Part shown: positions 9,216 through 37,755 of the stretch, piece after piece
How the letters are laid out: every line of letters starts with the position of its first letter
Numbering within the stretch: position 1 is the first letter of the stretch
From: Pascua guehoae
Taxonomy: Eukaryota; Basidiomycota; Tremellomycetes; Trichosporonales; Trichosporonaceae
Assembly (NCBI GenBank): GCA_001600415.1
Contig: BCJX01000004.1
Coordinates: 2,193,064 to 2,257,063 of the forward strand
Direction: 5' to 3'
DNA length: 64,000 nt
Program-made: the position numbers and the translations under genes
Notes under the pieces: model-generated
The model's database searches: none
Told to the model about the DNA's origin: nothing
What the model saw: the letters and a program-made list of their open reading frames with translations, nothing else

Positions 9216-9924
9216 GTCAAGAATGGATCAAGGCAGGTACTGAGACGAACAAAGTCGGCTGTGTGGACTATATGGTGCTTAAAACCACCCGAGGATGTGC
9301 CACTGGGGATCGCGTGTCGGCATCGCCGTGAGGACGGACTGGACCAAGTGTGGAACGAGAGCACCCGGATTGGTCCCCTACTGATACAAAACTGACAAAA
9401 CTTGTGCTTAGCCCAGGCGATGGTGGCAACTGCAAGAACAACAAGAACGTGTGTGGGAAGTGATGTGCTCGCGTGCTCACATGCTCGCACGCGTCACAAC
9501 GCGTGGTCGGTGTTGTGGTTAGTGACGTTGGGTGGGGTTTCGGCCATGTCCGATAATGGATAAGACCTAACTTGGTTCTAATCGTTCTATTAATAGCCGA
9601 GCCCACGAGGCACGTGCATGGCATTGGAATTCCTCTCATCCTCGTTGGTTTGGGGGCTTCTCTCGACACTTCTCCATCCTTTCCATCTTCACACACGTTT
9701 CATGTCTGTTCATCAACATCCTGGCCTTAACTCACTAGTGCCGACTTTGGCAGGCTGGTGGTCACGGTGGGACCGCCGTTCTTCCCGAATCCACATTGGC
9801 GGACCCAACGGTAACCCAAAAGCCTCTTGTCGCATCCTTGCCGAGTGGACACAAGTGTCGACGAGGGGGTAATCTCATGATACTTGCTCCGAACCGATCA
9901 AGATTCTTCATGTACTCACTCACC
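9216..9924. promoter_or_regulatory. Shared promoter region, acid phosphatase / multicopper oxidase
   Basis: About 0.7 kb between two divergent genes for extracytoplasmic enzymes. Possible E-box-like CACGTG occurs at 9610-9615 (GGCACGTGCATG). CACGTG is the core of the yeast Pho4 site, which would suit a phosphatase promoter, but one hexamer is weak evidence. Confidence 0.3.
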
Positions 9925-13502: not shown

Positions 13503-14348
13503 GTACGTACAGGTGGGACGACGTGTTGGGCAGGAAGTTGAAAGATGGGGGTTTGCGCTATGTCGTTGCCTGAGCAACACGGCGAACAGGGGTTAGACGT
13601 TGAGGGGCGTGTGCTGACCGTTGCCAGGCAGAAGCAGCGATCGAGGGTAGCCTGGGGTCAAGAGTCACAGCAGTTCTGGGATGTGCAGAGCTTGGTCCCC
13701 GTCATGCTAGCAATTCCGACGTGTTACGCGGAGATCCCTGCGTTCTCCACCGCCCCGTGACTGGTTGTAGTGCAAATCAGGAGTTAGTAGTAGAGACTTA
13801 CGATGCTGTGGTGTAAATCACTCGAGAACAGTATGAAGCACAGTAGTTGCGCCCGACAAGATTAACCAGGTCCTTGTCTCTATCCAAGCAGTTGTCGACA
13901 TAAGTTAGAGACCTACAGGCAGTCACATACTGACGCGACGAAGGTGGCTCATATTAACTAAAGTGGGATCAGATTGCTTCTCAAACCATGTCCCAAACTC
14001 ATCACCCGCTCCTGAGAGCCGAATACAGCCATCAACCGAGGAGACAAGACGGCAATCAGCATTCGATGCCATTTGTCCACAAGGGGCCCCAGTGTTACCA
14101 TGAGGATTTGAGATGGAGAACTGCATCCAGCAAATCCAGAACTAGAAAGCAAGACCGTGGTAGTGATGACAAATTGTTGCGACCACACCTCTGACACGAG
14201 AACGTTGATAATCGCAGCATACTGAGATTCATTTGCGGAATACGGAAGATTTCTTTTCAATAGACGACACTCTTGGGACACCAACAAACGGCACCGACGC
14301 CCAAGTTCACTAACAGAAGTCTGCCATGAGCAAGGAGTCGAAGGTTGG
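13503..14348. other. Intergenic region
   Basis: About 0.85 kb between the convergent coiled-coil gene and the small secreted protein gene. A 3' terminal exon of the latter may lie at the right edge: an acceptor is possible near 14327. Otherwise I see nothing. Confidence 0.3.
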
Positions 14349-14976
14349 TCAGTAGATCACAATACTCACAGCACGTCTCCCCATCAGGGCAGCACCTAAC
14401 GTTTTGGTACTCAGAGTCATGGTCGCACCAGGCGCAATAGGTTCTGTGGGGTTAGAATGCTGGGAAAGACTCAGGCTCATCCCGTCCCACAACTGCCCCC
14501 CGCCCCTGTACCCACCCTTTTTCGCAGGCCCCGCCTGTGAGTCAGCCTTTGCCGTGGCGCATGCTTGCAAGGACGCTATCGCCCCCACTAGAAACGTACC
14601 ACCAGGACAGCATTTCTTTTCCTTGGGAATCCAGGTCCCCGTTTTCTTGTCCGCCCCCAGACAGAACTCCACCTTGCCCCACGTTGCTTTAGGCCTGTTC
14701 TGGTCCAAAATGTCGCCGTTGAAACGACGGTGTAAAGTCGGAGCAGTGGTTGGGATGGCAACGGACGGCCCTGGGGTTGACATTCGTCCCAGCATTATCG
14801 TCCTTCTGAGTTAGCTGTGGCAGTTCGGTAAGGGCGGGGGGACTTTATTGCTGTCAACTAACACTTCCAACACTGCTACGTCCCTCGACCATGCCACGAT
14901 CCTCGTTGTTGGACTGGAGCGGCCCAGCCATGGCGAGAGTGGCAAGGATGAGGGCGAGAATCGGCTTGGCGAGCAT
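14349..14976 (-). CDS. Small secreted cysteine-containing protein, paralogue A
   Basis: Exon 1 is 14976-14880 and begins with a signal peptide (MLAKPILALILATLAMAGPL). An intron 14879-14771 (GTAGCA...CCCAG) restores phase into exon 2, starting at 14770. The mature part carries 'VEFCLGADKKTG', then 'KEKKCCPGGTF' and a later Cys. A second intron may lie inside the Gly-rich stretch, and a GTGAGT near 14376 suggests a further terminal exon, so the 3' end is uncertain; the open frame stops at 14349. Signal peptide, N-terminal style and the C-(x)n-CC pattern match paralogue B at 17665, and both have a TATATAAAC box about 95-115 bp upstream of the ATG. Function is unknown; cell-surface or effector-like small secreted protein is an inference. 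Confidence 0.5.
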
Positions 14977-17664
14977 CGTTGGTAAGATTATACTAGTATG
15001 TGCTTGGGAGGAAGTTGGGGTACGGTTTTTACACAAGTGCAAGTGGAGAGAAGAGGGGGATTGTCCACTCTGTTTATATACCTTTTTCGTGAGTGAATCA
15101 GCTTCCCATCTCGCCGTCCCATCTCCCGTCTTGGACAACAGAAAACTGCCGATGAGACACCCGTTGTGATGTTAGCGACCACCGGAAATAAGATTGCCCT
15201 TGGTGTACCTGCGCTTTGACCATCAATGGTGAGGCGTGGTGCTCATCGAGTGTAGCGATGAAAGCCTGCTCGGCGACACGGGATGTCATATAAACACGTC
15301 TCACGTCTGTTGTCAACGTCCTGGAAAGCTTTTTACGTGTCTGCACGAGTACTGTATCGGGCAGTAACAGGTTGTACATGGACATCAAGAGCTCCCCTTG
15401 TCGACCTCCTGACGGGTACCTCTCGTGGCCCCAACTTTTCCGGCCTCGGTCGTCAACCCCCCAAATGCAGACCGTTATGGTTGGTCTTTTCGTTGGTGTA
15501 ATGAGCGATGAGAAGGTCTACAGATTGGGATTGGGAGACGTTGCAAGGTCCACAATGACTTAGAGGCTTGGAGTGCCGCATCGGAGATGTTTGATACGCG
15601 GGACGCCTTGCCAAGCCCTCCACTGCGGTCTGTTAGATCATAGCCTATGGCTCTGTTGGCCCCACAGCAGTTAGGCTTATTTTTTCTAACAGGGTGCCTG
15701 TAACATGTAGGAGAAAGAGTTGGGCCAGGCACATGAAACACGCTGTGATGGGCGCGGTACTGCGGCTGCCCCGCCCGCGTCACAGGAACGTGGGGGCTGG
15801 GTGTTTCGGGGTGGCGCGTTCGAAGCCGTGGCGGGTTTGCCCGGATGTGAGGGAATGTGAGTTTTGTTGGGTAAGGCCCAGACCTAATCTTATCTCTAAA
15901 TGTGAAACCAGGTCGCGTACTCACACGCAGTGTCAAGCAACTCCTATCCATAATACATATCGCCAAGAGTAAACCACTGTTGCCGAGGAAGCAACGTCGG
16001 TATTGCCAAACATGACATGCCAATTTCACCAGCCCGTATTGTATTTGGCAATTGTGGGTGGCTGCAGTCCAACTGTTGGGAGCCGCTCAGCGACCAGAGT
16101 TACTAGGAAAATGCAGCCGATGTAGACATTCTACATCACATTTGGGAGGGTTACGTGTTCGGCACCTATCCATCTGCTGCCGTTACATATGTAGCTAACA
16201 GTCATAGAGTCACCTTTCTGGGTCACCTTTCTGCCCACAGGCTTCAGGCTTGCAGTGTATGCATAGGGTAGTTGAAGGTCTTTTACTGATCTACTCGCTT
16301 ACTCACCTATCTCACCACAAGAACTCGCGACCCGGTAGTGTGCACTGCTATTCCTGGTAACAATTGCGTGACATGGAATGAAGGGAGAAGTTGGACCATG
16401 GGTACGGCGTTGAAATAGGCGTGCGGGTGGCGAGTCGCGGGGGCGTGCGCGACACGGATTCGACTGTTCCGAAGGAAGAGTAGTGTCGGATGACCCGCCG
16501 CAGGATGAGTGGAGCGCCAACGATGTTCGCACTGGGCAAGGCCGGAGGCATAAATCGTAAAGTGTAAAAACACGTCCAATAGGACGGACAGTGGCGTGTG
16601 AGCGTACTTCGCGCTTGGCACCCAACAGAGGAGTACGTTGTCAAGTGCAAGTGATACTTTCTGGGCCGCAACATGGCATCCACTCCTGCCATATCGTGAC
16701 CCAGAAAGTGCCCACGTGGAATCAGGGTGTAAGACGCGTCGAGATACGCGTGTCGAACTTGAAGCATAACCACGACGCGTCAAACCTTTCGTGCCAAAAT
16801 GCACCCAAAATGCCAAAATGTTAGGGTACGGTAAACCTATTAATTGGGGCAGTCTGAAACATCTACAGATATGACCGCCTAGCCGTTGTCTGTCCCGAAT
16901 CCAAATCTTGAAGCACATCAGGTCGAGCCAACGCGTACATACCGCATATCGTGTGACAGTAGTACGTCAGCCGACCGACCCCACACTGTGCGACGGCTGT
17001 GTTTACACACCTCACTATACTAGCAAAGGCATTCCACGAGCCAGCTGGGGAGCGCACGCATGGTGGCACAGGTGTCATGCCAAAGTCGAGCCATGAGACA
17101 TGATGGGCCCAGCCTTTCCTGTCAAGCGCTGATCGAAACACTATTCATCTGTCAACACAAACACAGCACATCCTCACGAGGCGGCACACTCAGGATTATC
17201 TAGCTGTGGTGAAATTTGAGGGGTCACCATCTGTCACAACGTTTCGAAACGCGTGACAACGGCTTGTCGAAACACTATTCCGCTGTCAACAACAACGTGC
17301 GCGCCGTGGATCCCACGGACTACATTCCAGCTGCCGTACTGATGTGTGCTGAACCAGAGTCACGAGTACGACGCGTCAACATGTGATCTCAAAGTCAACG
17401 CGTTTGTTTACACCGGCGGCCCACTGGACGGGGAACTGTCTTTGTGTCACGGTTGCTGTGTTTACTCCCCACGTTTGTATTGGGCTCTATCGCCTACTCA
17501 GGCGTTCTCTCCGAGTCCCGCGCTCGACTCCAGCCTCCTCTGAAAGATATATAAACGGGGCGGGTGTGTGCCAGACACGCCCACCAGAACCACCTCACAA
17601 CCAGTCCAGTGACAGACACCAAACCTCTCTCAATTCACCTACAACACCATACAACGGTTTCATA
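14977..17664. promoter_or_regulatory. 2.7-kb divergent intergenic region between small secreted protein paralogues
   Basis: TATA boxes are visible for both genes: 15071-15080 on the minus strand (TATATAAACA) and 17548-17556 on the plus strand (TATATAAAC). A direct repeat of about 24 nt (TCGAAACACTATTC followed by CTGTCAAC) occurs near 17129-17152 and again near 17267-17290. ACGCGT/CGCGTC words are frequent between 16.7 and 17.4 kb. I find no convincing gene in the interval. Confidence 0.45.
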
Positions 17665-17943
17665 ATGCTCGCTCGCACCCTTTTCGCCATCTCTCTTGCC
17701 ACTCTCGCCATATCTGCTCCTCAGAAGGCAGGGCAGGATTTCGGCACTGAGAAGGGCACCGCACTCGTAACCCCACCCACTTTCCCCAATCGCGAAGGGT
17801 ACAAGTGGTGCGGTGAGATCGAAATTAAAGCTGACCGTGTTTGCTGCCGTAAGTGTCTGGATATATTCCCCCAGAACGCTGGTGGAACCATACTGAACAT
17901 CGTCAGCATGGCTAAACGATTGCGCCAAAGGGTACGTATATAA
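17665..17943 (+). CDS. Small secreted cysteine-containing protein, paralogue B
   Basis: ATG at 17665 with a signal peptide (MLARTLFAISLATLAISAP) nearly identical in style to paralogue A. Read straight through, the protein has 92 aa with 'YKWCGEIEIKADRVCCRKC' as its cysteine core. A GTACGTATA at 17932 could be a donor to an exon from about 17995, which would change only the last residues. A GTAAGT at 17850 followed by CAG only 26 nt later is probably not an intron, since splicing there breaks the frame. A TATA box lies at 17548-17556 and a pyrimidine/CA-rich leader precedes the ATG. The gene points away from paralogue A. Function is unknown; likely extracellular. Confidence 0.55.
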   Translation: MLARTLFAISLATLAISAPQKAGQDFGTEKGTALVTPPTFPNREGYKWCGEIEIKADRVCCRKCLDIFPQNAGGTILNIVSMAKRLRQRVRI

Positions 17944-18921
17944 ACGATATGGATCCTGATACGCCGAGCATGAAGAAACTACTGACTCGACAGACAGGAA
18001 TGCATTCTATGCCCAGATAAAGGAAGGTGGCGGACGGAGTGTATGAAGAGGGGGAAGAAAACTGGTGGGTACTGTACAGCGCGTGCAGGGATATCAATAT
18101 TGACTATAGTAGCTTGCCCGAAAAAGTGGCAGTTGCAGGTTCCCTTTCCTACAAACGCTTGGTAGTGATTATGTGATACTGTATAGGCACAGGGTTGTGG
18201 ATACGACCCCCATTGACTTGCTTTGCTCTGGGCGCCACAGTACAGTACTGTACAAAGGTGACGCCCGTATTCCACAAGCAGTGCTGACTGAGCTGTGTGT
18301 AGAAACTGTCTGCTCGTTGCACACGGTGTCCTTGAAAACCAGAGTGGTACAAGGCACCGATTCGGTAGTGTGCGGCACAATCGCCAACCCCAGATACAAA
18401 GTGCATCAGCGAGGCATACAAGCTGTAATGGTATACGCTCTCAACCGCTTTCTCAGAAACATGTTCATGATGGGAACCGCCGAGTTGCCCTCTCGACGGC
18501 ATTGGGATACCTTTTGGGTATATGGGTAGTGCGGCCTTGCGGTGCCATTACACAACCATTTATTAGCAAGGTCTTTCAGGACCTCATTGCACACCTACTA
18601 GAGCATTCGCTTCATGCCTATCCCCAGGAGATACTTCTACTCAATCGTGCCGAGCAGGATATTGTACCAAAACAGGCCCCCCTCGCCCACTATCTATCAG
18701 TGCCAAACTGACGTCCAGAATACCTCTGGATCGCCACTCGAGTCACGTGATTTCCTTCCGGCAAAAAGATGCCGAGCCCGAGTCGATCACTCCTAACCTT
18801 GATGACGCGATGACGACGACGCGGCCAACGACGACAGTCAGACACGTCGTCATTCACCAACCATCTCTTGATCCGTCTCCATACAATCTTATCGCCCAGC
18901 CCACCACTCTGCCCCCCGACC
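17944..18921. other. Intergenic region
   Basis: About 1 kb between the secreted protein gene and the tyrosine phosphatase gene. It contains a short palindromic stretch around 18239-18250 (ACAGTACTGT). ORFs on both strands overlap and none has recognisable sequence. Confidence 0.35.
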
Positions 18922-20061
18922 ATGTCACTCGACCACTCCGAGCTCGAGGCGCTCAGCGCGACCAACATCCAAGACGCGATCCCCGACGAGTCGCTCGCAG
19001 CAGCCCTGTCCTCGCCGCCCTTCCTCCCCGGGCCGCTCTTCAACGTGCGCGACCTCGGCCTCATCCACGGCTCGGCACTTGCCCCCGGACGCTTCTTCCG
19101 CAGTGGCATGCTCAAGGACGACGAGGAGACGGTCGCATGGCTCGCATCCCGCGTCTCGCGCATCGTCGACCTCCGCGGGGAGCGCGAGCGCCAGCGCAAC
19201 CCCGACCCGGCGCCAGAAGGCGTCGAGAGCGTCTGGTTCCCGCCACAGGGCACGCACCCCGCCCGGCTCAAGATTGAGGACTTTGTCGACGGCGACGGAA
19301 GCCAGGGGTGGCGCAAAGTGTACCTCGACATTGTGAGGGACTATCAGCCGACGATCCGCGCCGTGCTCGAGCACGTCAGGGATCGGCCACAGGAGCCCAT
19401 TCTGTTCCACTGCACGGGTGAGTGTGCCTGCTGTTTCTGAGGATTTGGCCTTGGTCGCTGTAGGGGGTGGTCGTCGCTTCTTCTCTATGTGGAGGGGTTC
19501 TTTGTCGTGTACTGAAGAGTGCTCGTCTAGAGTGCGTGTTTGGGCTGAGGTTGGACCTGCCCCCGCATAGCGTGATGCTGGCTACCTGCCAGTGTGGCGA
19601 GACTGAGTCTGCCTGGGAATTGCCTACCCCTCATACATATCATACTATATGCCCAGCATGTGCGCCCATCGTTTGATCTACCCCCCACTCCTGACTCACT
19701 CCATCACTGCGCCCCGCTGCCCCGCTAACTCCCAGCCGGACGCGACCGCACAGGCGTCGTCGCGGGCATGCTGCACCACCTCGCAGGCACACCCTCCGAC
19801 ACAATCACCTCCGACTACATGCTCACGCGCATCGGTATCGAGCCGGTCCGCGATATGCTCGAGGGCTACCTGCGAGCCGGCTTACCCGGAGTTGACCGCG
19901 ACACGCCCGGGTTCGACAACATGGCCAGCCTGCGCGAGACGTCATGGCAGGCCTTCATTGCGGGGCTGGAAGACGAGTTTGGCGGGTGGGATGGGTACAT
20001 TGCAAAGCTGGGCTTTGGGGAGGACGAGGTGGCCGTCATCAGGGCAAACCTTCGCAAGTGA
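18922..20061 (+). CDS. Tyrosine phosphatase, Y_phosphatase3 family
   Basis: Two exons, 18922-19417 and 19736-20061, give 273 aa. The start ATG follows a 'CGACC' context, and the N terminus contains 'FNVRDLGLI', as in bacterial and fungal tyrosine/serine phosphatases of the Y_phosphatase3 family ('N-x-R-D-x-G' motif). Further motifs are 'GRFFRSGML', 'RIVDLRGERER' and, across the splice junction, HCTAGRDRTG, which fits the CX5R phosphatase loop (catalytic Cys, terminal Arg). The 318-nt intron is long for this window and cuts the P-loop between Thr and Ala. A physiological substrate cannot be named; this family includes phosphotyrosine and phosphoinositide phosphatases. No membrane segment or targeting signal is seen, so a soluble cytosolic enzyme is expected. 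Confidence 0.87.
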
Positions 20062-20418
20062 ACCCACGTTATAACGAGGGGTTACGGCGTGCCAGAGAGC
20101 AGGCGTCGAGGGATCTTTCGGCGCGCCATCAACTAGACATAAGGAGTGTAGAAGCATGGCAGAAGCTGTTGTGGTAAGCGTCTATACCGCAGCCGAGTAC
20201 AGGCACGGTGCTCCGCGAGGCTAACTTGTCTTACGCGTAAGGCAGAGGACAGCGACGGACTGACGACATGCGCGATTGCTATTCTCATGGCACACGGTGG
20301 CCATGGGCGCGAGGCCACTTGTCGACTTCAGCCCTAGACCGTTTGAACTTGTCCTGTGCGGCCCAAGGAAAGATTCGCTGCTGCCAGCTGACGTGCTCAA
20401 ACCCAAAAAGCAAGATGC
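20062..20418. other. Intergenic region
   Basis: About 0.36 kb between the phosphatase gene and the tRNA gene. Nothing supportable. Confidence 0.4.
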
Positions 20419-20929: not shown

Positions 20930-23900
20930 CTAGTGGTCAGCGTTGATATGGTACGTCGGAGTAAACTGAGCCCACGGGCCACTGAAAGGGCGCAACGTCG
21001 GAGGTGTAACAGAAATACTGACAAGGTCTGTATGAGCGGATCCATCGTCGACATGTGCATCGGGTCGAGGGTGCCCGAGTGCACTTGCGCAGCTTCACTG
21101 GGCAGCTCAAAGCCTGTCGCGAAACTATCGCCAAAGCCGTGCGAAACCTCAGCCGTACCAGGCATGCCTAGCAACGGTGGGCTAATGTCGAACATCTCAG
21201 TTGCTGAACTGGGGGTTAGCATGTCAGCCCAACTGACTAGTACTCACGATGAGCCCAACAAGTCCTGCAGAAGGGTCGCTTCAGTCCCCGGCATAGCGGG
21301 CTCGGGGGTCACGGGGTTGGTCATGCGTTCCTGCAGACGTCGTAGCATAGGAAGCGCACGTCGCGCCACGGCAGAATGGGGTGCCATTTGCTCTATAACG
21401 TCGTGCGAAGCCTGAAAGTCGGCACGTACGTCGGCGGCGAGGATGCTCTTGGGGACGCGCGAGATGACCGTGTATTGGATCACGGCGGCAGTGTATGCAT
21501 GGACTGCCTGTCAGTAGAGGATCTCTATGGTTAGTGGGCAGCGCTGGCACATCATTCACACCCATCGGTGTTGTGGCTGTCGTCGCCGCAATTTCCCTAT
21601 GTCTGCAGGATCGGTATGCAGCCCAATTCCCACGGCGATGCGGCCAGAGGGAACCGTTTCACTTACACATGAAGAACCACCACCCATACGCAGCCTCGGG
21701 GCATCGGCGAACGAGAGAGACCATGAGCCTTGTGTGTTTTCGGGCGGAAGACACACACGCGGTAAAAGAGGCGGCATGCGGCCCAAGGAGAGGTTCGCTG
21801 CCACTCATCACCGCCTTGAAGAACCACGGGCGGTGCAGTGCTGGGCATGTCAGCGTCCGCCACGGCCCGATTTGGAGATGTTGCAACCGAGCATCCGTTG
21901 AAGAACAACGTTGTGCTCCCGAACCATTGTGGTCAACTCCCACAGCCGATGACAGAAATTGCGATTTCCCATCTCATTACTCACCCAGCAAGGCCTTGTG
22001 GCAAAAGAGCGTCGCTGCATGCTGCTGCGCCGTCTGCTTGGGCGGGAGGTTACTCTCATGTGCACCCTCGTAAAAGTCTGCGTCGGCCCACCGCAGCCAC
22101 GGGGGTGCAGCACCCTCAATACCACGTATCTCAGTGTCCAAATCGACCACAACCGAGTAGTCTGGGAGATCGGTGCTGGCGAGGCAATCTGCAACGCGGA
22201 AAAACGTCTGCGCAAGGCGGTACTTGTATACGTGGAAGATGGAGTCCTGAGACTGTGTGCTTGTCGGCGTGGTGTCGAGTGGTAGTGATGGCGGGGGGCA
22301 GTCGCACAGCTGTGTTGGGGTTGAGTAGGGGCGGCCAAAGTTCAATGATTGTCTGTGACTGTCAGTCAAGTCATGGAGAGGCACGAGCATTGAGACGCTA
22401 GCCAAGATTCGTTGATCCAAGATACTCACAAGATGTCATAGGTCGCGCACTCCCACCATATCCGCGAGCGATTGTCGCGCTGCGCCTGACTCAGTCCCCA
22501 TGACGACGAGTCGCGGTGTAGGCCCATGGCACATGCAGTACGGACGCATAGGCCAAGAATCGGCCATGCAGCCTTTGCCGCGTCCGAGTTGCCCTGACCA
22601 AAGAGGTAAGAGACCATCATGTGGAGCGTCTCGACTGCCGCAATCGAGTGGCGAACAAGAAAGTGCTGCTCGGGGACACAGAGGAGTGCAGATGCGGCGT
22701 TGAAAAGCGGTTGACTCTCGCTTGCGGGGCGGAATGAGAATGTCAGTGCCAGCGCAAAGGCCATAAGGACAGTTGCGAGGCGATGGGGTGCGACACGATG
22801 TATGCGGTCTGGGCGGGCTGGAGTGCCTTCTTCTCTGGTTTCCCCATATATTGATTCGAGGGCTGCTTGGACCGCCGCCCGGTCCACGGGACAGTACATC
22901 CACTCCACCAACTCGGCTGTCTCGTTAGCTATACCGAGAGGCTAGTAGACGGGCGTACTGTACGTGTGAAACAGCGCAAACGCCTCGCCGGCAGGTGGAA
23001 ATAGTGCGTGCAGGCCTTGGAGAGCATCCTTTTCGACAGCAAGGAACGGAAGGCGTAGTGTCGCCGACGGCGGTGGCTGCGAGTGAGCTCTCCATGCCAT
23101 GGAAACTGTCAAACAAGCAAACCCCCAAATATGTACTCACCCCATCATCCTCGCATACATATAGCGCGCCAGCGCTGCGGCCAAGATACCGTTCTGTCCC
23201 ATCTTCTTCTTCCCGAACCCCGACACCCGAACCGGCCGCCGCATCAATTTGCATGGCGGCCTTTTCCACAAGGTCACGACTTGGGACAAGCGGACTCGTT
23301 GGTGATAGCGTCGAGCTCCTGAAAGAGTACGTGCTTGAGCCGGCAATGGTGTCGTGAGGATCCCCGCACTGTTTGTCAGCATGTTAACATACCAGGCTAC
23401 GAGTGGAAGGTCCTGAATTCTAGGTTCAAGCGACTGCCAATGACAATAATGTAAGGAACAGCCGCCTGATCGCCCCTCCATAAAGATTGCCCCGTATCAC
23501 TGGCCAAGTAGTGGGATGGCTCGCAACTACCAGTCGCATCGGGCTCTGGGGCTGCGCGACATAAATAGGACACACGCACCTGTTCAGATGGTAACGATAC
23601 ATCCGTAATGCTCCCACTTGGTGGCGCTGGTGGTCCGCCTTCCTTGATCTGAAATGCGCTGCTGCCCGGACCTTCCCGACCTTCGTACGCTGCCAGTCGT
23701 TCTCGTAGCTCCTTGATCTCGCTCTGAAGGTCCAGTATCCGAAGTTGGGCGTTGGGTGGTCTGCCTCAGTTAGCGAAAGAACGGTCCCACGACAGGTAAT
23801 GTAGCGGCTGCAGTGAGGCGCCTTTATGTGCAGTCTCATTTGGCGAAACAACCATGTTTGTGTGCCGGCTAGAAACCGAAGGAAGCACAAAATGACATAC

Positions 23901-24721: not shown

Positions 24722-26037
24722 CTACTTGACAAACGCCTTGAGCAGCTCTGCCGTTCCTTCGACATCCTCAAACATGTGCCAGTGCCCAACGTTCTGCAGT
24801 GTCTTGACCTCGGCCCTGAGTGCGTCGGCAAGGAAGTCTGTTGTGGCTTTGGGCGACGTCTTGTCCTCGTCGGCAGCGACGATGAGGGTTGGGGCGGTGA
24901 TCCTGCTGTAGTCTGGGTTTTGACCTGCCCCGAGTGCGAGACACGCCTGTGCGTATCCGTCCGCGGGCTGCGCCAGAAGCGACGCCATGACCGCCCCAGT
25001 CGCAAGTGGCCGCGACGCCTGTGTGTATGCCGAGGTGCCCGCTGTCGTGACAGCTGCAGCGATGGCAGACATGCCGCCTTCGCGTACTGTGGCTGCGCGG
25101 CCAGCGAGTGCGTTTTGTCCAGCTTCGGGAACCGCCTTGACTGGACCGATGAGGACTGCTTGTGTCAGTTCACTGTGTTTTTGGCGACAGCGTGGCCAAC
25201 TCACAGAGCTTTTCCACACGTTCAGGGTAGGAAGCAGCAAAGGTCGTGCAAACGAGCTATGGTGTCAGTGGAGGCCATCGGTTTGCTACACCTCGACGAG
25301 AGCACTTACACCACCCATCGAGTGTCCAACAACAACCGCCTTTGCCGCACCGACGTGGTCAAGCACCTCCTTGACGGACTCGGCGTACGTGTCAATCGTC
25401 ACTGCGTTGCCAGACGCTGGGCTTTGACCCAAGCCCTCGAGATCAAATGCCACGACGCGGTGGGTCTTGTCGATACCGGAAGCAGCAATGATCGGCAGGT
25501 AGTTGGTGTGCCAGCCGCCGAGGCCATGAACGAAGATGGCCGTAGGGGCGGATGAGGAAGTAACACCTCCAACCCAGACGTGCAAGCTGCCAGATGGCAA
25601 CTTGACGAGGTTGACGTCGGGGGCAGTGCTGGGTATTAGAAACAGCAGAGCGAGGATGACTCACGCGGGCAATACGGTGGGAGATACAGGCTCGCATTTT
25701 GGGGTCGGCCCATCAGGAGAGCCGACTACGTTGGACAGCGTGCCTAGACCAGTGATGGTAATGTCGATCTGGTCACCTGGCTTCAAGAACTTGCCTGCCG
25801 ACAGGCATACTCCCGCAGGAGTTCCTGTTGCAATTACGTCGCCGGGCTGGAGGGTGATGCCCATGGAGCACGTTTCGATCAGCGTGGGGATGTCGAAAAT
25901 CAGCTCGTTGGTGTTCTGGTGCTGCCGCACTTCGCCGTTGAGCTTGGTCTCGAGAATCATGTTGTTCCAGTCGAGATGGGACGCGGGAACAGCGAATGGG
26001 CCCTAGTGGTTAGGTAGGCTACACGGTCGGCGACAAG

Positions 26038-26127
<90 letters not shown>

Positions 26128-26944
26128 GCGCGCGCGCACATGTTGCACATATCAAGCCACACAGGACAGGCGCGACTCACCATGGGGCAGAAAGTATCGA
26201 GTGACTTGCCAATGTAGAATTGCTTGTGGTCGCGCTGCCGCTCACGCGCGGTGAACTAGGCGTCAGCCAGGCGGCTGCAGTAAAAGTGACCCTCTACTCA
26301 CGTCGTTGATAATACACGCGCCCCAGACATGGTCCCACCCATTCTCCTTCTTGATACCGATCCCGCCCTTGCCAACAATGATGCCGAGCTCTCCCTCATA
26401 GTCGAGCGTGCTGGTGACATTGGGATGGGGGTAGATTGGTGCACCAGTGGGGATGATCGAAGTCGCCCGCTTGGTGAAGATGACGGGAAAGTCGGGCTGC
26501 TCCTTCTTATCGCTGCTGTCGTAACCCGACGTCGCGAACTCGCTAACACGGATGTCAGTGACATTCATTGCGAGCTCCCCAGTTGGACCCACACTGCATG
26601 CGCCTTGTAGTTTTTGCCGACGCAGAGAATGTCACGCCCGCGGAAAGGTGCCAGGATCTCGACATCCTCAATGGCCTCCTCGGGATATCCGGGAATGAGC
26701 TTGTCGGCAACCTCGTCCCACACCTCGATCAGGCGTTGGAGCGTCTCGACAGGGCGGCGGTTGGGGAAGAGCAGGGGTGTGACCTTCTTCTCGTCGGCGT
26801 CAACGAGGCCAACAGTAGCGTAAGGAAGGCGTTTCGACTTGTCTGAGGTGGTTAGAGGCGAGTACTTGGAGGTACACAGCACCACTTACAGGACAGGAAC
26901 TTCATACAGCCATGAGCCGCTGGGCGAGGGAGCGTGTAAGTCAT
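24722..26944 (-). CDS. Fused FAH-family hydrolase/decarboxylase-type domain and alpha/beta hydrolase
   Basis: Eight exons on the minus strand, all phase-compatible: 26944-26890, 26842-26593, 26542-26302, 26255-26181, 26002-25665, 25628-25310, 25256-25205, 25155-24722; 587 aa. Residues about 1-319 are a fumarylacetoacetate-hydrolase-family domain: 'CVGKNYKAHAVEF' has the HxxE dyad (H100, E103), 'LDYEGELGIIVG' supplies E151 and E153, and D182 ('ACIIND') completes the metal site; 'GDVIATGTPAGV' follows. Residues about 320-587 are an alpha/beta hydrolase resembling 3-oxoadipate enol-lactonases: 'FVHGLGGWHTNY', GHSMGG (Ser423), D541 (EDKTSP) and H568 (VGHWH). An intron (25664-25629) joins the domains with no stop or ATG between them. 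A two-step ring or lactone breakdown enzyme is inferred. It is divergent from the amidohydrolase. Two separate genes are possible only if the second had an unseen start. Confidence 0.85.
26041..26136. repeat. (CA)n microsatellite with (CG)n end, inside an intron
   Basis: About 42 CA units (26041-26125) run into about five CG units (26126-26136). The whole tract lies in intron 4 of the fusion gene (26003-26180) and makes up over half of it. Alternating purine-pyrimidine tracts of this length can adopt Z-DNA. Confidence 0.95.
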
Positions 26945-27543: not shown

Positions 27544-30130
27544 ATGGCCCAGGTCCAGTCGCTCCCCCACCCTCCGTTCAAGTAAGACTCGCGACGCAAT
27601 CGCCACAACTGTTGCTTACGCGTCACCAGCTTCGACCCGGCGGTCGCGCCGCAGACGTCGCATTGGAAGCCACCCAAATGGTGCGTGGCATGTCTGGGTT
27701 GTTGACCTGGGTTGTTGACTGCCAACTGACTCGGCAGGATGCTTGCGCGCACCTCTGCGCCTGCGACACCGAAGAACATGAACTGTGTGCGTGTCTGATC
27801 GTCTGCATCGGCACTACTGTTGCTTACGCATTAGAACGGCCTAGGAGAGCCGTGGGACCCTAAACGCCCGACGTTCCGTGGAAAGGACCTTGTGCGTCGC
27901 CTCCAAGGTTGCTCCAGCATATTCTGGGAGTCAAGGGCTGACAATATGTGCTAGACCAAACCGCTTGCTGGTCTCCGAGTTCCGGACATTACGATCATGA
28001 CTGACGATGACGACCTTGAGAAACGCACGGCCTTTGTGGATGTCAACATTATCGACTCGACAGGCGCAGAGGCATACCGAGGCGACGTGCTAGTTGTGGG
28101 CCAACGCATTGCCAAGGTAGGCGGCAAACTCGGGCCCGACGACCTGGCGGGAGCGCGTGTAATCAAAGGCCACGGGCGTACGCTGATGGCCGGGATGAGT
28201 GAGTTGGATCAACCAAAGTAGTCCCCAACGCTCTACCTGACATGTTTTCAGCCGACGCGCACACTCACTTTACTTGGACCAACTCGGGCTCCCTCGATGG
28301 GCTGGCCACCATGCCGGTAGAAGAGCACACCTTGTTTGCTGCCCGTTCCGCACGCACCTTTCTCGATTGCGGGTACACGTCGTGCCTGGGCGCGGCGTCG
28401 GCCAAGGAGCGGATCGACGTTGTGATCCGAAACGCCATCCAGTCGGGCGATCTGCCGGGGCCCCGGTACTTGGCGAACGGAAAGGAGATGGCTCCGAACG
28501 ACGGCGCACTCGTGCCGGGCATCACCAAGTTTATCGAGTCGCCAGATGAAGCACGCGAGGCAGTGGCGCAGTACGTGGAAATGGGTGTGGACCAGATTAA
28601 ACTCTCCATGAGTGGAGAAGAGATTACGGAGACGCTTCGAGCCGAGGATATTACAATCCCGGACGATATGGTGGCGGCTGCTACGGAAAAGGCACACGAG
28701 CTGGGCATTCGCGTGTGCTCGCACGCGAGGAGCGACGAGAGTATTGTGCAGTGTCTGCAGTATGGTGTCGACATTATCTATCACGCCTGTGGGTGTCGCA
28801 TGGTGTTGGGTGGCATGGTCGCCATGTCCACTCCCCTCTACGCTTCACACTGACAGTAGCCTTCATCTCGGACGAGACAATGTACGCGCTCGAAAAGCAA
28901 AAGGATCGCGTATTTGTCGCCCCTGCCCTCAACTGGCTTGTCGCGACCTTGTACGACGCCGAGGCCTTTGGATGTGAGTCGGAACTGCCACTTCTGCTTT
29001 GATTGAGCTGCACATTGTTTTATTCTGAGATCGTTCCCGACTCCTCTTGCTCTGTGCATTCCGGGCAGCGGTCGGTTACTTCGACTGTGAGGGTTTTATT
29101 GCCCTCTGCGGGCGTTGGTGGTGGTGGTGGGGTGGGGGGCCAGATCGGGAGGCTTGGGGCTTGGAGGTGAGGAGTGTTGTGGTTGTGGGGGGGAGAGGAA
29201 GGAGAGGTGGGGTCTGGTGGAAGATGGCTGAGAGGCGTGGAGAGCGAGTGAAAGGGAGCTGGGGGCAGAGAGGACCAGATGCAGACGGGATCAAGGACAT
29301 GACCAGACGAGGACGGCGCCTTTGCTCATTCCACGCGCCCGCCCTCTGTCTGGAAATTGCTTCTCTCTCAATTCCTTTGGAGCGACGCTAGAATTGCTGA
29401 ACGCTTTACGATTTTCTCTTACGCTCAAAACCGTTTCCCCGCTCGGCGCCCTGCCAACTCTCCTGTGCGCGACTTGCTGACATTGAGACCCAACAAGCAA
29501 AGCAGAATCCGTCGGCTACGCGCGCGAACTAGAGGTCGCATGCGCGGGCCTCAAGGAGATGCACAAGCGTGGCATCAAGATCCTCCCCGGCGGAGACTAC
29601 GGGTATGTATCCGGTGGTGAGCGGGTGTGCATCGCGGAGGCGGCCGTATTCAAACCGCCACAGATGTTAGCCCCCACACCTACCCTTCCCTCTAGCCAAG
29701 ACTGACGCCAGTTTCGCATGGGCCCCGCACGGGACGTACCGCGACCTGGCCCACTTTGTAAACTACCTCGGCTTTACGCCCATGGAGGCGATTCTCTCCG
29801 CGACCGCCCTCGGCGGCGAGATTATGATGCACCCGCACGAGCTGGGCAAGATCCAGCCCGGGTACTATGCCGACCTGATCCTCGTGGACGGTAACCCGCT
29901 CGAGGACATCAGTGTCCTCAGTGGACACGAGCATATTGAATTGGTTATGATTGTGCGTGTGTCAAGCGGATAGGTTATTGCCTATTTTTTGTTCCGCCAC
30001 TCGCTGACAGTCGCAGAATGGCCGCATCCACAAGGAGCACCAGAGAGACCTCCAGGCGTGGGCGCCGGTATCTGAAGCGGCGAGGCACCATGAGCACGAA
30101 GAGGTCGTGCCGAAACTGCTCAGATCGTGA
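27544..30130 (+). CDS. Metal-dependent amidohydrolase (imidazolonepropionase-like)
   Basis: Ten exons in phase: 27544-27581, 27630-27680, 27738-27786, 27835-27891, 27955-28198, 28252-28788, 28857-28973, 29503-29602, 29712-29952, 30017-30130; 515 aa. After an N-terminal extension of about 85 residues, the amidohydrolase core starts with 'FVDVNIIDSTGAEAYRGDVL', then 'GMTDAHTHFTW' (HxH metal ligands), 'VCSHARSD', 'IIYHALAFISDETM', 'ILPGGDYGFAWAPHGTYRDL' and 'ADLILVDGNPLEDI', the last being the family's C-terminal beta-sandwich signature. It should hydrolyse a C-N or lactone bond in a cyclic substrate. Exon 8 uses a non-CAG acceptor (AAAG) because CAG would create a stop. Intron 7 (28974-29502) is the longest, at 529 nt. 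Divergent from the fusion gene and followed tail-to-tail by TF2. Confidence 0.85.
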
Positions 30131-30404: not shown

Positions 30405-33212
30405 TCAAGTACTCGCAGGCGGTTGCTCGACAGACTGTGGTGGCGGAGGCGAGTTTGATCTGCTGAGCGCCGTGCCCGGAGCTGGTGGGGGCATCTGGAC
30501 AAATGTGATTGCGGAAAACTGCCGTGTCAGAAGCCATTCTGCGTCTCGGCGACTGGTTGCCCTCGTCTCCCGTGGACTCACCATGTCACACCAGTCGCGG
30601 ACGAGGTCCGAGTCGGTACCCGGCGTCGAAACCTGGCCACAGAGCGCACACGCAATGTGGAAGACCTTTCCACGCACGCTCTCGCCATTGCTCGCGAGAT
30701 CCTCGACGGGGATACTCATGAGCAGATTGTGGATCTCGCGCGCAATCACCTCGCGCTCGCGCCCCAGCTGCTCGTCGTCGACATTGAGTGCCGATCGCAG
30801 ATCGTACAGGGCGAATTTTGTGATTATCGCCGTAATGAGAATGTTTGCACGCTGCGTCGCGAATACCTGCCGGTTGGCCTCGATGGCCACCGTGTTTGGG
30901 TCCTGGATGGCCGCAGGGAGCTCGCGGAGTACGGCATGCACACGCTCCTCGGCCGCCACGGTCCAGTCGAGTGTGATGGTCTGCAGCTCGGAGAGGATGC
31001 AGCGGTGGTGGAAAAAGCACTCGGACAGGATGCGGAAGATCTTTGACACGGCGACAAAGCCACACAATAGTGACGTGCGCGATGTGGGTTGGGGGAACAT
31101 GCCCTGGGACGTGATAAAGTCGTCGTCAATGGCTTCGGGGTACGAGCATACACCCTGGAAGTCGTTGATGAGCATCGGGTTGCCTGGGATTGCTCGTGTT
31201 CTGGTGTGTTAGTGGGGGAGGGGGGTGTGGGTGTCGTCGCTCACTTGTCACTCGCGTAGAGTTGCCAGAACACGCGACGTCGCAGCTGTAGTTCAACAGC
31301 ATCGAGGCCAAGCGCCTGTGTCTTGGCATCGCTGTGGAGGCCGAGCGAAAAGGCGAGCTGGACCGCCTGGCCAAGCCGCGCAGCTGCAGTGTGTGCCAGG
31401 CCGATGGAGAGGAGGTAGAAGTTGTCACTGAGGGTTAGTGGTGTCCGGTGATTCTGAAACGGAGATGCTTTCGCTGTCACTTCCAGTGACATGTGACAAA
31501 TGCCAGCGGCAGCTGCGACACTCTTCGGCCCAGCACTCCAGCCAGGCACTCATTGCTCCGATACGCACTCGGGCCTCACTTCCGCCTCCCTCCGACCTCC
31601 CTCCGACCTCACTCCCTCTCCCTCCGACCTCACTCCCTCTCCTCCGACCCATACCCATCCCCATGCGCGCACTCGTACCCTCACTCACAAGATGATTATG
31701 CAAATCTGGGTGAGCGTCACATGCCCATGATACGTCCTCTGCAAGAGCTGGCTGGTACGATGGCATCGGCGCTGGAGCCGCTTGAGGCCCTCGACGTCAA
31801 ACTGGTCCGTAATGAGGCGCGACGTCGGGAGCTGCGAGATGGTAAACGCGACAATGCTTAGGAGCAGTGCGCGAAAGTCTGTATCGCGGAGGTCGAGGCG
31901 CGTAGCGAGGTTTTCGGCAAACGTGGGGCGATGGACGAGGGGCAACAATGGCCACAGGTACTGGAGGTAGAGCGAAATGTAGTGTGAAATGTTGGCCCAG
32001 GACGTGACGTCTTCAAGCTGGGGGTCTTTGCTTGCGGGCTGGACAGTGGCGGCGTGGCCCGAGGCGGACGCGCTCAGGGGGTTCTCGGGGCTCTCGAGGC
32101 TGAGCAGCTGGGCCTGCTCGGAGGGGAAGCTCGCGCTCCCTGGCGCCAGGTCGACGCTGAAGTCTAGACTGCCGCCGAAGAGCGGCATGCTGCCGTCAAA
32201 CACAGAGTCGAGCCATGACAAGCCCCCGTTGTCGTGGTTGCCCCGCAGCGTCGGTGTGAGTGCCATGGACCCCACGCCCGACGAAAAGGGGCTCCGCGGT
32301 GTGCCGCCTGACCCGTGGTGCCGGCCAGGAGCCAGGTGGTGCGACGACCCGTGTCCGTCGTAGTTGTCCATCGCGGCATCAGGGGTAAGGCCCGAGGACG
32401 CCGGCGGGGCAGCCGCGGGAGGCGCGAACCGCGACGCGCTCGCCGGGTATGGCGTGTACGATGGCCGCTGGAGTGGTGATGGGCGTGATGGCCCCATGTT
32501 CGAGCTGGATGAGCTACCGCCGTTCTCGCCTCGTTGTTGTGATTTCAGTGCTAGCGCAAAGCTGACGTCAGTAGGTTGTTTGGCAGTTCGGCATGTTATT
32601 TGGAGCTCGGTACGCACGAGTTTTTCCTCCCAGGCTTCTTTTTAACATAGTCGTAGGTGCACTCGATCTGCAGGTTGCGGCACCCGACGCAGGGTAGTGA
32701 GGGGTCGTTGTTGTCTTCAACACATTTGATCTGGCGTGTTAGTGTGCTGCCGGCAAGGAATGGTGGGTGGCGGCCCGGGCGTTCCCGGCGCCGATGGAGT
32801 GGGGCCGATGGTGAATGCTGCGCCGACCGTGGTGACCATCGCGCGACCATCGGGGCGATCACATCGATCGCATTCCCTCCCCCGACACTCTGCCCTCTCC
32901 CCTAGTTCCACCTCGGCGTATAGGTGCCCCACAACTACCCACCTTGCGCTTGCGACAGTTGTCACATGTCCGTGACGTCTTTGGCTTGCCGCCGCCGCCG
33001 GCCGAACCCGCAGCGGGCGGCGTCGAGCCGTTGTGTGCCGTCTTGTTGGCGGGTATCTTGGCGGTGTTGTCCTGGTGTAGGAAATGTTGGACGCGATGCG
33101 CGACGGCAACGAGGTTGTGCGCGCGCAACAAAGTTGTGTGTTGGACTGTTGGTTTGTGGGGAAGTGGAGGGAGGAGAGAATGCAGGAACGAAGAGAGATG
33201 GCACCGGCGCAT
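30405..33212 (-). CDS. Zn2Cys6 fungal-specific transcription factor (TF2)
   Basis: Exons from the zinc cluster on are consistent: an exon ending at 32943, then 32730-32618, 32561-31689, 31427-31245 and 31200-30405, all in phase (655 codons after the first exon). The cluster is 'TCDNCRKRK' joined to 'IKCVEDNNDPSLPCVGC' and 'QIECTYDYVKKKPGRKN'. A Ser/Pro/Gly-rich linker follows, then the fungal-specific domain: 'YLQYLWPLLPLVHRPTF', 'FDNFYLLSIGLAHTAAARL', 'RRRVFWQLYASDK', 'IPGNPMLINDFQG'. The start is uncertain: 33210-33212 is the nearest upstream in-frame ATG that gives a reasonable N terminus, and a separate 5' exon is possible because of an acceptor-like CACCAG just before DNTAKIPANK. The 261-nt intron 31428-31688 contains a CTCCGACCT minisatellite. 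Convergent with the amidohydrolase; a regulator of the enzyme pair or of its own regulon. Confidence 0.82.
31580..31650. repeat. CTCCGACCTCACTCCCTC minisatellite in a TF2 intron
   Basis: On the plus strand, units built from CCTCCCTCCGACCT and CACTCCCTCTCCCTCCGACC repeat about four times, imperfectly, inside the intron between the third and fourth recognisable TF2 exons. Confidence 0.8.
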
Positions 33213-34892: not shown

Positions 34893-37755
34893 CTACGCGG
34901 TAATAGCGCTCGCCTCTTCCATGCTCTCGCGGCGGTGCTGCTCCTCTGCTGCGGAAACGAGGGCGTCAATGCCGAGGAGCGGCCCACCGCTCATCGACGT
35001 TGGCCAGCGCTCGCGCCTTGGTGGTTGGAGTGGGCGGGGCGTGCCTTCACGGCTGCGCTCCTTGTCGCCCGGGGCGGCATCACGCTCACGCTCGCGCTCA
35101 CGCTCACGTTCACGCTCCCATTCGCGATCCATAGGCGACGAGCGGTAGGCCGAGATGGGTGGAAGCGGGCCTCCGTGCTCGCGCTCACGCTCTGCGGGGA
35201 CACTGCTGGCGGCAGACCCAATGGAGCCTACACGCCTGTGGCCGCGAGGGGGAGAGGGCGAGCGGGGAAAGGCGCCGTCGCGAGGCCGCAGCGGTGGGAG
35301 CAGAGGGTAGCGCACATTTGGCGGGTAGTTTGCCTCGGACGGTGTAATGGGATTGGCCGACGACCCACTAGCAGTCGACTCGGACGGCGTCGGGTGCGGT
35401 GACGACTTTTGCGGCGGGAACGCGACTGGCGACGGCACGTGCAAGTTCTGAGCAGGGAGCGGAACAGGCTGCTGCAGCTGTTGTTGTTGTTGGGCCTGTG
35501 CCTGTTCAAACATTTGCCGCGCATTGGTTGGTGTTGGGATCGGCAGCGGGCGCTCGTGAGGGGCTCGGTCGGCCTCGAGACACGGGAAGATGCCACGCTC
35601 AATGGTCTCGTGACGCTCCCAGCCCCACTCGTTGTAGACCTGGGCCCACCACTGGTTGAGACGTTCCTCGAGGACGACCTGGCTCGACGATGGTGACGAA
35701 GCCCGGACGTGGTCCATCCAGCATGTAATAATCATAATCGGGAAGAACACTGGCGTTAGCGCAAGTCGACCCGCATAAACTTACTCAGAGGACCCTCACG
35801 ACCGCGCTCGCCAAGCGAGTCGATGACGACGGTGAGATTGTCGACAGCCTGGCCCTGGCGCCGGACGGCAAACTGCGCGCCGAGGTGCCTGGACTGGAGG
35901 TAAAACATGCCACATTCGGCGACGGCGTGCATGTAGCCAAACGCCCAGCCGCTGAGCGAAACCTCGGGGATGGTCGACTGGATCTTTTGCACACTGTGCG
36001 ACAGGTTGATCTCGTCAAAGCGGAGGTGGTGAGGAAGGTCCAGCGCCCACGACTTGAGTGCCTGCTCGTAGTGGCTCACGGGCAGGTGACGCGCCTCCTG
36101 CGACCCAGGTCCACCATTGTTGGCAATAGCCATAATGTTGGAGAAGAGTGCGAGCTAAGAGTCAGTAAAACATCCTCGCCTCAATCACGTACGATTCGAA
36201 TAATGTGACCCAGCTCGCCGACCTGGCCTTCCTCCGAGTGCCAGTTGCCCGTACCGACAGTGAGATTGTCACGGCGCAATGGGTCGCGGTTGCCGATACC
36301 CATACCGCCGTACCGGGTCCAGTACATTTCTGGACCAGGCAGAGGGATTGTGCTAATCTCATGGTCCCGGACGCGACGCTGGCGACCACTTGCGGCCGAG
36401 CAAATGTCACCAATCACACAGAGCCAAAAGGTGCGGTTGCGAATCTCGGCAAGTGTGTAATATTCGTGGCTCGAGAGGTTGAGGCGTGCAGCGGGTGGAG
36501 GAAGCGCACCCAAGCTGTTGGGCCGGAGGACCGACAGCGCCGTGTCAATGTAAAACAGACCAAGACGCGGTTGGCGGATCGAGTTGTAGTACACCGACAA
36601 GAGAAGGGCCGACTGAACAAACTCGGTCTCCTCCCAGGTGCCCGAGTCCATATTCCTCTCCTCCTCTGTCCAACGCTGGCGGAGGTCGATGATCCGGTCG
36701 AGGTTGGCACGGCAACGCTCGGCAAACACCTGGCCGCGAAGGTGGTTGGGCACAGACGTCGAAAACGTGGCGACAAACGCGGGGTTGGTGCACAACCGCG
36801 CACTAATGGTGTAGATGGCGTCGAGGAGAATGGGCGACACGCGGTTCATGTAGTACCGGTTCAAGAATGTTGGCACGTGAGTCATGGCCGCATAAGGCGG
36901 GGTGCGCTTGAAGAAGACTAATAGTGTGTCAGTCAGGGTTCTGAGGGATCGACTGCTACACAAATAAAAAGTGACTCACTGTCGATGAGTTCGGCGGAGA
37001 GCGAAATGTCACGGTCGACGAGGTCGAGGGGGCCAAAGCCACGGGCCTCGGCCGAGCGCCAGTCACCCACATCAACACCAGGGCGGTAGTCACGGCGGGC
37101 CCATTCGTCACTGCCGGAGGCACCAGGTGTACCCGTCTTGCCGTTGCCGTTGCTGCGCTCCGAACCATTGGCAGCAAAGTTTTGCCTGCTGCCATCGTCG
37201 CTGTTGCGCTTGGCCATGGGCTGGACAGACGAGTCGCGCGTGCGGGGCGGGGGGATTTGCTCTCCCTGAGCGTTGAGATAGATGCATGGGCGAGCCGAAA
37301 ACTCGCAGTTGGAGCAAGGGGCAAACCCATCGCAGCGACGCTTGTTCTTCTGTAGCGAGTGTGAGCGGGCGCAAAGACGCGCAAGAGGAATGATGAACAC
37401 TTACATGGCACGCGCTGCAGGCCTTTGCGAGCCTCTTGCGCTTACGACCCTTGGTCGTGAGCTCCTCCTTGTCAAGCTCGTGCTTTGCGGGACGTGGGGG
37501 CTGGAGGGCGCCTTCGCGGTCCGGCGCCACACCGCCACCAAACATGGTCTGCGAGTAGGCAATGCTTGCGTTGCTCATTGTGCGGAGTGGGGTGGGGCGA
37601 ACGGGGTGTTGTCCGAGCTGCTGAGGCTTGCTCGAGGGACCTTCGAGGGCCTTGGGGGTTCGAGAGCGTGGCTGGAGAGGAGGGGGAGTGGGCTTGGCCG
37701 CTGGCGATGACCGCTCAGCCTGGGTGCGAGGCTGGACCGAGTCCTCGACAGCCAT
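34893..37755 (-). CDS. Zn2Cys6 fungal-specific transcription factor (TF3)
   Basis: Five exons, 37755-37405, 37349-36980, 36917-36193, 36154-35785 and 35749-34893, all in phase; 890 aa. A Pro-rich N terminus leads to a basic patch (KGRKRKRLAK) and the zinc cluster 'ACSACHKNKRRCDGFAPC' plus 'NCEFSARPCIYLNAQG', split by intron 1 after the second Cys. The fungal-specific domain contains 'FFKRTPPYAAMTHVPTFLNR', 'SALLLSVYYNSIRQPRLGLF', 'IRNRTFWLCVIGDICSAASG' and 'LSGWAFGYMHAVAECGMFYL'. The C-terminal third is low-complexity: a Gln run near QAQAQQQQQLQQP and a long Glu-Arg dipeptide run (about 35080-35125). Introns are very short; the last (35750-35784) is 35 nt. No gene is visible for 7.8 kb upstream, which suggests a heavily regulated factor. 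Target genes are unknown. Confidence 0.88.

Follow-up and report, generated by a model that had tools for sequence, protein, structure and literature searches.

Gene model of the locus

Does the minus strand of this Pascua guehoae contig encode one protein in which an FAH-family domain is joined in frame to an alpha/beta hydrolase (ABH), and, if so, from where did such a protein come and what might it do? The window, the whole stretch of 64,000 nucleotides that was analysed, was examined with this question in mind. Rebuilt base by base, the eight exons (Table 1) join into a single frame of 1764 nt, coding for 587 residues plus a stop (26944-24722, minus strand), in agreement with the initial annotation, which had read them as in phase. 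All seven introns are of the GT-AG type (47, 50, 46, 178, 36, 53 and 49 nt) and carry a CTNA branch-like site 11 to 16 nt ahead of the acceptor, and the two alternative reading frames of the spliced transcript model contain 11 and 13 stops. About half of the fourth intron is an uninterrupted TG repeat, which makes it the longest of the gene. The frame and the splicing of the eight-exon model thus stand, whereas its first codon is probably M14 instead of M1: in the alignment, the homologues from basidiomycetes start no more than about two residues away from M14 (MKFLSY...), so that translation may start at 26905 and give a protein of 574 aa. The ascomycete homologues have short, dissimilar extensions.

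The intron that had been placed at the domain boundary (25664-25629) does lie in the linker and has good donor, branch and acceptor sites. The linker itself contains neither a methionine nor a stop, as had been claimed. Retention of this intron leads immediately to an in-frame TGA after residue 320, and a 320-aa FAH-only protein could therefore be made, which may additionally supply free FAH from the same gene.

The fusion seen by the initial annotation is thus retained, but its picture of the locus was incomplete, as it overlooked a divergent amidohydrolase gene, apparently of the same module. The start of this gene and the upstream start of the fused gene are 1053 nt apart, so that three enzyme families are adjacent. 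In its six-exon model the junction of exons 3 and 4 is the least certain part, because a few residues seem short there with respect to P0104, a homologue described below. The encoded protein matches a Corynebacterium plasmid homologue at 54.8% over 92%, and it retains HTH, the lysine in KLSMSG, two more histidines and the aspartate in GGDYG, a set which we take to be the metal-binding pattern of the amidohydrolase superfamily. The match to PF01979 was made on the N-terminal part of P0104 only, the region homologous to the window amidohydrolase. The nearest solved relatives of the window protein are a possible prolidase, a putative amidohydrolase and an arginine carboxypeptidase, with ochratoxinase further down. 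No second copy of the fused gene or of the amidohydrolase with comparable similarity was found in the genome. FAH-family loci also occur on other contigs, the genome having a total of 19 exon-level PF01557 matches, and contig C8 carries a free relative of the ABH at 35%.

Table 1. Coordinates of the fused gene and of neighbouring genes in the window
Feature	Position	Strand	Content
Exon 1	26890..26944	-	upstream ATG at 26944; likelier alternative start M14 at 26905
Exon 2	26593..26842	-	FAH domain start; H100 of HxxE dyad
Exon 3	26302..26542	-	FAH domain; E103; metal ligands E151, E153, D182
Exon 4	26181..26255	-	FAH domain (K199)
Intron 4	26003..26180	-	178 nt; contains 84-nt TG repeat at 26124-26041
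Exon 5	25665..26002	-	FAH domain end and linker
Intron 5	25629..25664	-	36 nt, within linker
Exon 6	25310..25628	-	ABH domain; nucleophile S423
Exon 7	25205..25256	-	ABH domain
Exon 8	24722..25155	-	ABH domain; D541, H568; stop
Amidohydrolase gene	27997..30130	+	six-exon model, 435 aa, divergent from fused gene
Amidohydrolase exons	27997-28198, 28252-28788, 28860-28973, 29503-29602, 29712-29952, 30017-30130	+	
Probable transcription factor gene, Fungal_trans domain	22429..22941	-	PF04082, 43.4 bits; downstream of fused gene

Domains and catalytic residues

The protein matches FAA_hydrolase (PF01557) at residues 90-300 with 209.8 bits (cut-off 23.9) and Abhydrolase_1 (PF00561) at residues 351-574 with 102 bits (cut-off 25.8), which places it in the FAH superfamily and in the alpha/beta hydrolase fold; both families had been rightly named. 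The residues listed by the initial annotation, an HxxE dyad (H100, E103), metal ligands (E151, E153, D182) and a triad (Ser423, D541, H568), are all found in place. The dyad and the acidic metal ligands are the defining residues of FAH proteins. H100, E103, D182, D541 and H568 are invariant in 27 of 27 aligned sequences, and E151, E153 and S423 are conserved in at least 90%, with a gap at E151 and E153 in P0090. One fused homologue, P0012 from Vanrija albida, has GHDLGG where the others have GHSMGG or similar; with its nucleophile changed from Ser to Asp, its ABH domain may have lost or changed activity.

More specific assignments could not be made. None of the three families reaches any NCBIfam equivalog cut-off (best 25 matches in the case of long lists), and each reaction is therefore extrapolated from a broad family. 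The fused protein scores 119.2 bits with the 3-oxoadipate enol-lactonase PcaD (TIGR02427; cut-off 255.85), 143.4 with the HpaG C-terminal domain (TIGR02303; 276.4), 117.2 with 2,4-didehydro-3-deoxy-L-rhamnonate hydrolase (NF053535; 500) and 131.3 with the bifunctional PcaDC model (cut-off 390); with values so far under the curated cut-offs, membership in these groups was rejected. The neighbouring amidohydrolase reaches 184.3 bits with the Xaa-Pro dipeptidase-type amidohydrolase (NF051886), against an equivalog cut-off of 500.

The ABH domain is nearest to 3-oxoadipate enol-lactonase models and structure chains. PcaD, its nearest named relative, shares the fold and the Ser-His-Asp triad, although the window domain stays under the PcaD cut-off. 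The PcaDC/PcaCD fusions show that such lactonases fuse with pathway partners, but the partner belongs to a different family from the FAH domain found here. The best solved relatives of this FAH domain are 8sky, named FAH family protein, which we take to be YisK, and HpaG-, isomerase- and FAHD1-named chains. The domain shares with the oxaloacetate tautomerases/decarboxylases of the FAHD/YisK type the FAH domain, the HxxE dyad, the metal ligands and the N-terminal extension; unlike them, it lies within a fusion and a cassette.

Fused and unfused homologues in fungi

A search with the whole protein yielded 862 homologues, 120 of which were listed. By local comparison, 119 of these 120 carry both domains with the FAH first, in Basidiomycota as well as Ascomycota; since the length limits of the search favour full-length relatives, this is not an unbiased rate of fusion. 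The initial annotation had regarded the two families as usually separate enzymes, which does not hold for this subfamily, in which the pairing is ordinary. It had also left room for related species without any fused homologue, and on this point the fusion stands. Judging from these proteins, the FAH-ABH fusion is old and widespread and not a one-off. Named sources include Naematelia, Vanrija, Rhodotorula, Mixia, Athelia, Sphaerobolus, Moesziomyces, Aspergillus, Botrytis, Bipolaris and Colletotrichum. These proteins, mostly of about 575-600 aa and deposited as “fumarylacetoacetate hydrolase-like protein” or “putative hydrolase”, names that record no tested function, have the same two domains, order and catalytic residues. 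The window protein is a member of this family of identical architecture; the fused protein P0003 of Naematelia encephala, for example, matches it at 68% over 98%.

Unfused relatives also exist. A search with the FAH half found FAH without ABH in Kwoniella, Cryptococcus, Papiliotrema and Mycena, and one with the ABH half found free-standing ABHs in Boletales and Rhodotorula. A quick FAH-domain tree has the unfused rows of fungi interspersed among fused ones, and the tails of the Kwoniella- and Cryptococcus-type FAHs (APDCAPV, PPPACAPI) resemble the fused linker (PTPKCEPV). We read the unfused fungal FAHs as having probably lost the ABH part and not as a primitive state, and some of them could be wrong gene models. 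The FAH models of Kwoniella, Cryptococcus and Mycena imply that an ABH in cis may be dispensable. Rhodosporidiobolus azoricus has both a fused protein (P0006, tag 006748) and an ABH alone (P0240, tag 006746; 57% to the window ABH), so that a free paralogue of the ABH apparently lies two locus tags from the fused gene.

Amidohydrolase sequence precedes FAH-ABH in one frame in 18 of the 120 listed homologues. Only P0104 has most of it (346 residues, PF01979 confirmed), while four others have about 100 to 177 residues and 13 only the last 63-77, these short pieces looking as if called from an internal start. P0104 groups with an Ascomycota-rich clade in the FAH+ABH tree, and the remaining three-domain homologues are probably fungal. 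The window fungus differs from them in having its amidohydrolase as a separate, divergent gene. The same Ascomycota-rich clade includes the fused P0032, which bears the name of a basidiomycete (Heliocybe sulcata), reflecting either transfer between fungi or contamination.

A three-enzyme cassette in bacteria

Bacterial genomes were scanned with the FAH alignment, the best 80 loci were kept, and a cassette was called where an ABH (100 bits) and an amidohydrolase (200 bits) lie beside the FAH. It is present in 26 of these loci (15 Actinomycetota, 10 Alphaproteobacteria and 1 Betaproteobacteria); the other 54 lack it at these thresholds, some being truncated by contig ends. Among plasmid records, 40 matches were listed for the ABH P0301, and the 15 regions opened, all among the best 19 and chosen by their cassette-kind ABH, all have the cassette. 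They include plasmids of Azospirillum, Corynebacterium, Cupriavidus, Pantoea, Caballeronia, Variovorax, Pseudomonas, Paraburkholderia, Alicyclobacillus and Priestia. Overall, 41 of the 95 loci, a total that includes the 15 picked by ABH, have the cassette; they belong to Actinomycetota, Pseudomonadota and Bacillota. Cassettes such as those of Azospirillum, Corynebacterium occultum (pCOCCU) and Cupriavidus metallidurans (pMOL30) consist of the same three families as the fungal locus, and identity between the window proteins and cassette members is 34-64% for the amidohydrolase, 29-46% for the ABH and 44-54% for the FAH. The fungal form differs in having FAH and ABH in one protein, a divergent amidohydrolase, and introns.

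The three genes are co-directional in 32 of 33 tabulated loci, and in 5 of the 13 plasmid regions with annotation the FAH and ABH genes share 1 or 4 nt. A regulator named GntR or FCD lies beside the cassette in 12 of these 13 regions, with none seen in Variovorax. The FAH gene is divergent within the cassette of Priestia, and in Alicyclobacillus the regulator is located between FAH and ABH. ABC transporter genes follow the cassette in Azospirillum argentinense, Caballeronia and Paraburkholderia sprentiae, and in Variovorax they follow a second amidohydrolase gene. An all-against-all comparison of neighbouring open frames at 33 cassette loci recovered the regulator cluster in 24 (GntR/FCD by Pfam for L017, by annotation for the plasmids) and branched-chain-type transporter frames near the cassette in about 10; seven proteobacterial loci share further neighbour frames, a flotillin-like one included. 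Regulator, transporters and flotillin-like frames name no pathway, and the surrounding genes vary, so that the neighbourhood was not used to assign one.

Some single loci have further features. In L077 the region upstream of the cassette codes for a flotillin/SPFH protein (5757-7925; similar frames in seven loci), and next to the cassette (14148-20238) are PALP, ornithine cyclodeaminase, M24, aspartoacylase and DctM domains, a set that to us resembles one for ectoine breakdown and uptake. As these ectoine-type genes come from L077 alone, the only locus annotated for them, the link was not used. L090, the Corynebacterium occultum plasmid, has, upstream of the cassette, a second FAH gene (9175-10062) accompanied by a separate GntR-type regulator; this region includes a benzoylformate decarboxylase gene.

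Bacterial counterparts of the fused gene occur in Williamsia sp. 1138 (L085) and its relatives (L125-L134), in which FAH and ABH likewise form a single open frame with the amidohydrolase adjacent; at L085 it follows the fusion. Compared with the fungal genes, these have a shorter linker, no introns, and the operon on one strand. Of 401 genomes of Williamsia's family, 14 were over threshold and 10 have a full-length fused frame of about 553 aa without stops, in 11 rows; two of these rows come from one genome, are each truncated at a contig end and perhaps represent one gene. In an eleventh genome a partial match reaches into the ABH half. An amidohydrolase match lies beside each bacterial fusion. 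Nine of 396 genomes drawn from the phylum were over threshold, and only the Williamsia genome itself has a full-length match. No common theme emerged from the flanking frames, seven of them near four of the fused operons and two more at L085.

Phylogeny and ancestry

The first FAH tree comprised 20 of the fused and 10 of the unfused fungal-type rows, all 41 FAHs from cassettes and, once 21 sequences under 280 aa had been dropped, 33 of the 54 remaining bacterial FAHs. The FAH+ABH tree (65 rows, 549 columns, unrooted) has the same 20 fungal rows and omits near-copies of fused rows (L126, L139) and of cassette rows (L015, L037, L055, L116); L085 was entered as L125, and P0104 was cut to its FAH-ABH part. 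The amidohydrolase tree was built without L047 (long branch) and P0102, and P0090 is in no tree.

In the FAH+ABH tree, the 20 chosen fungal fused rows and the bacterial fused rows each form a group supported at 100/100 on a long stem, and the two groups together with the Corynebacterium/Arthrobacter-type cassettes receive 99/94. In the tree of amidohydrolases, the window sequence and those of three three-domain homologues, which are its fungal rows, fall inside the actinobacterial set (97/96), although the fungal group itself has only 39/89, with the window row on a long branch. This nesting of fungi among bacteria, in unrooted trees, suggests a transfer from bacteria to fungi.

Whether fungi and bacteria share a single fusion event is less clear-cut. 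The fusion could have arisen twice from the same operon order, in fungi and in Williamsia-type bacteria, and this would agree with the compact fused clades with their long stems, the support of only 91/84 for their union, an amidohydrolase tree without a sister relation between the fungal and the bacterial fused-operon rows, and an AU test, with groups named after the tree was seen, that does not reject the joining of the bacterial fusions to unfused Corynebacterium/Arthrobacter cassettes (p 0.209). Nevertheless, the union is found in 93% of 200 bootstrap trees, and the same test rejects the joining of the fungal fusions to those cassettes (p 0.017). Two events are thus possible but rather unlikely in our judgement, and one fusion common to fungi and bacteria is favoured. 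A fuller history, in which a mobile operon of soil bacteria encodes a complete three-enzyme breakdown pathway, two of its enzymes were fused once in an actinobacterium, the set was transferred horizontally to the ancestor of Dikarya and all three became a trifunctional fusion in some fungi, has in our estimate slightly less than an even chance.

Proposed function

Recurrent gene order, fusion of two of the enzymes and, in the Rosetta-stone sense, the joining of the amidohydrolase too in some homologues support a shared task. Gene order kept in three bacterial phyla together with stepwise fusion (none, two, three domains) is good evidence for it. We consider it quite probable from fusion and gene order that the three enzymes act in one pathway. 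The frequent GntR-type regulator points to induced catabolism, and together with the transporters it fits a system induced to import and degrade an external compound.

The reading that we prefer, with a probability of about 0.62, is that the bifunctional catabolic enzyme and the amidohydrolase are a captured actinobacterial module, in which the ABH feeds the FAH in the degradation of an amide- and lactone- or ester-bearing compound. The cassette would have passed from Actinomycetota into the ancestry of Dikarya, with FAH and ABH probably fused already. The fused gene would produce an N-terminal FAH-superfamily metalloenzyme, a short linker and a PcaD-like serine hydrolase. The metal-dependent amidohydrolase would cut an amide (an N-acyl amino acid or a cyclic amide), the ABH domain would open an ester or (enol-)lactone to a 2-oxo acid able to exist as an enol, and the FAH domain would tautomerise this acid, followed by C-C bond cleavage (or decarboxylation) to central metabolites. 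The fusion would hold both domains at 1:1 and close together, and we hypothesise channelling between them. For the ABH feeding the FAH taken by itself the odds are even, and the substrate class is proposed tentatively; acyl-homoserine lactones, acyl-tetramic acids and plant amides would be our guesses. The scheme draws on the hydrolase families and on activities described for FAHD proteins: diverse members, YisK included, tautomerise oxaloacetate, and human FAHD1 has modest acylpyruvase activity (PMC10825186).

That same tautomerase activity, the nearest solved relatives of the FAH domain and the existence of FAH-only fungal proteins would also be compatible with a house-keeping or metabolite-repair oxaloacetate tautomerase or decarboxylase, with the ABH as an accessory esterase and no dedicated pathway. 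This seems improbable, as an ABH and a specific amidohydrolase accompany the FAH at so many of the bacterial loci, partly picked by ABH as they are, the FAH is fused to the ABH in bacteria and fungi and to both partners in some homologues, and the usual GntR-type regulator would point to induced catabolism. A fused form of a classical ring-cleavage route (3-oxoadipate, homoprotocatechuate or homogentisate), the role implied by the initial annotation, agrees with the nearest models of the two domains, enol-lactonase and HpaG. Yet neither domain comes to its curated cut-off, scores being about half of it or less, the consistent third partner is an amidohydrolase, and the genes listed around the 13 plasmid cassettes with annotation, in a table that is incomplete, include none named as a ring-cleaving dioxygenase; we hold this role to be very unlikely. 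Least credible is that two adjacent genes were wrongly joined over a false intron. The shortness of intron 5, the immediate stop upon its retention and the FAH-only relatives might hint at it, but the intron signals are good, 26 fused homologues align on both sides of the junction and the bacterial fused open frames need no intron, and the two-gene model was rejected on these grounds. The captured three-enzyme module therefore remains our preferred reading.

The open-access literature searched, which mostly excludes subscription journals, yielded no description of the fusion or the cassette and no named pathway for the FAH-ABH-amidohydrolase set. The portions available of PMC6288828 and PMC12176266 contain nothing on an FAH-ABH fusion. 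N. crassa fah-2 belongs to the PDR-1 regulon (PMC5469009), but it was not used here, as the available part of that paper does not show its fused state. A paper on the breakdown of salicylate in Aspergillus (PMC7842363) names an amidohydrolase with decarboxylase relatives, which was not taken as related to the one here.

The main interest of the locus is that the fused gene and its neighbour look like the fungal form of a three-enzyme bacterial cassette, a traceable case of a bacterial operon becoming a eukaryotic multi-domain enzyme. The fungal fusion is a handy single-gene entry point to the pathway, and its substrate, once found, would give a function to hundreds of proteins annotated by broad family, among them the homologues of the fused protein.

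Other features of the window

No GntR match is present among the 10 frames scanned, which cover part of the window, and one of them, beside the fused gene, has a Fungal_trans domain. This probable transcription factor gene (22429-22941) is a candidate regulator of the module; candidate regulators are fungal transcription factors in the window versus GntR in the bacterial cassettes. Two frames within 30408-32641, between the amidohydrolase and a second Fungal_trans domain (36184-36975, minus strand), have no Pfam match. The window also encodes domains of a multicopper oxidase (9739-11922, plus strand), a glycoside hydrolase of family 3 (50712-52862, minus strand) and an MFS transporter (54204-55088, plus strand), for which no link to the fused gene was seen. 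Finally, three consecutive long minus-strand frames of 586-600 aa at 653-7448 are alike in layout and may represent a tandem family.
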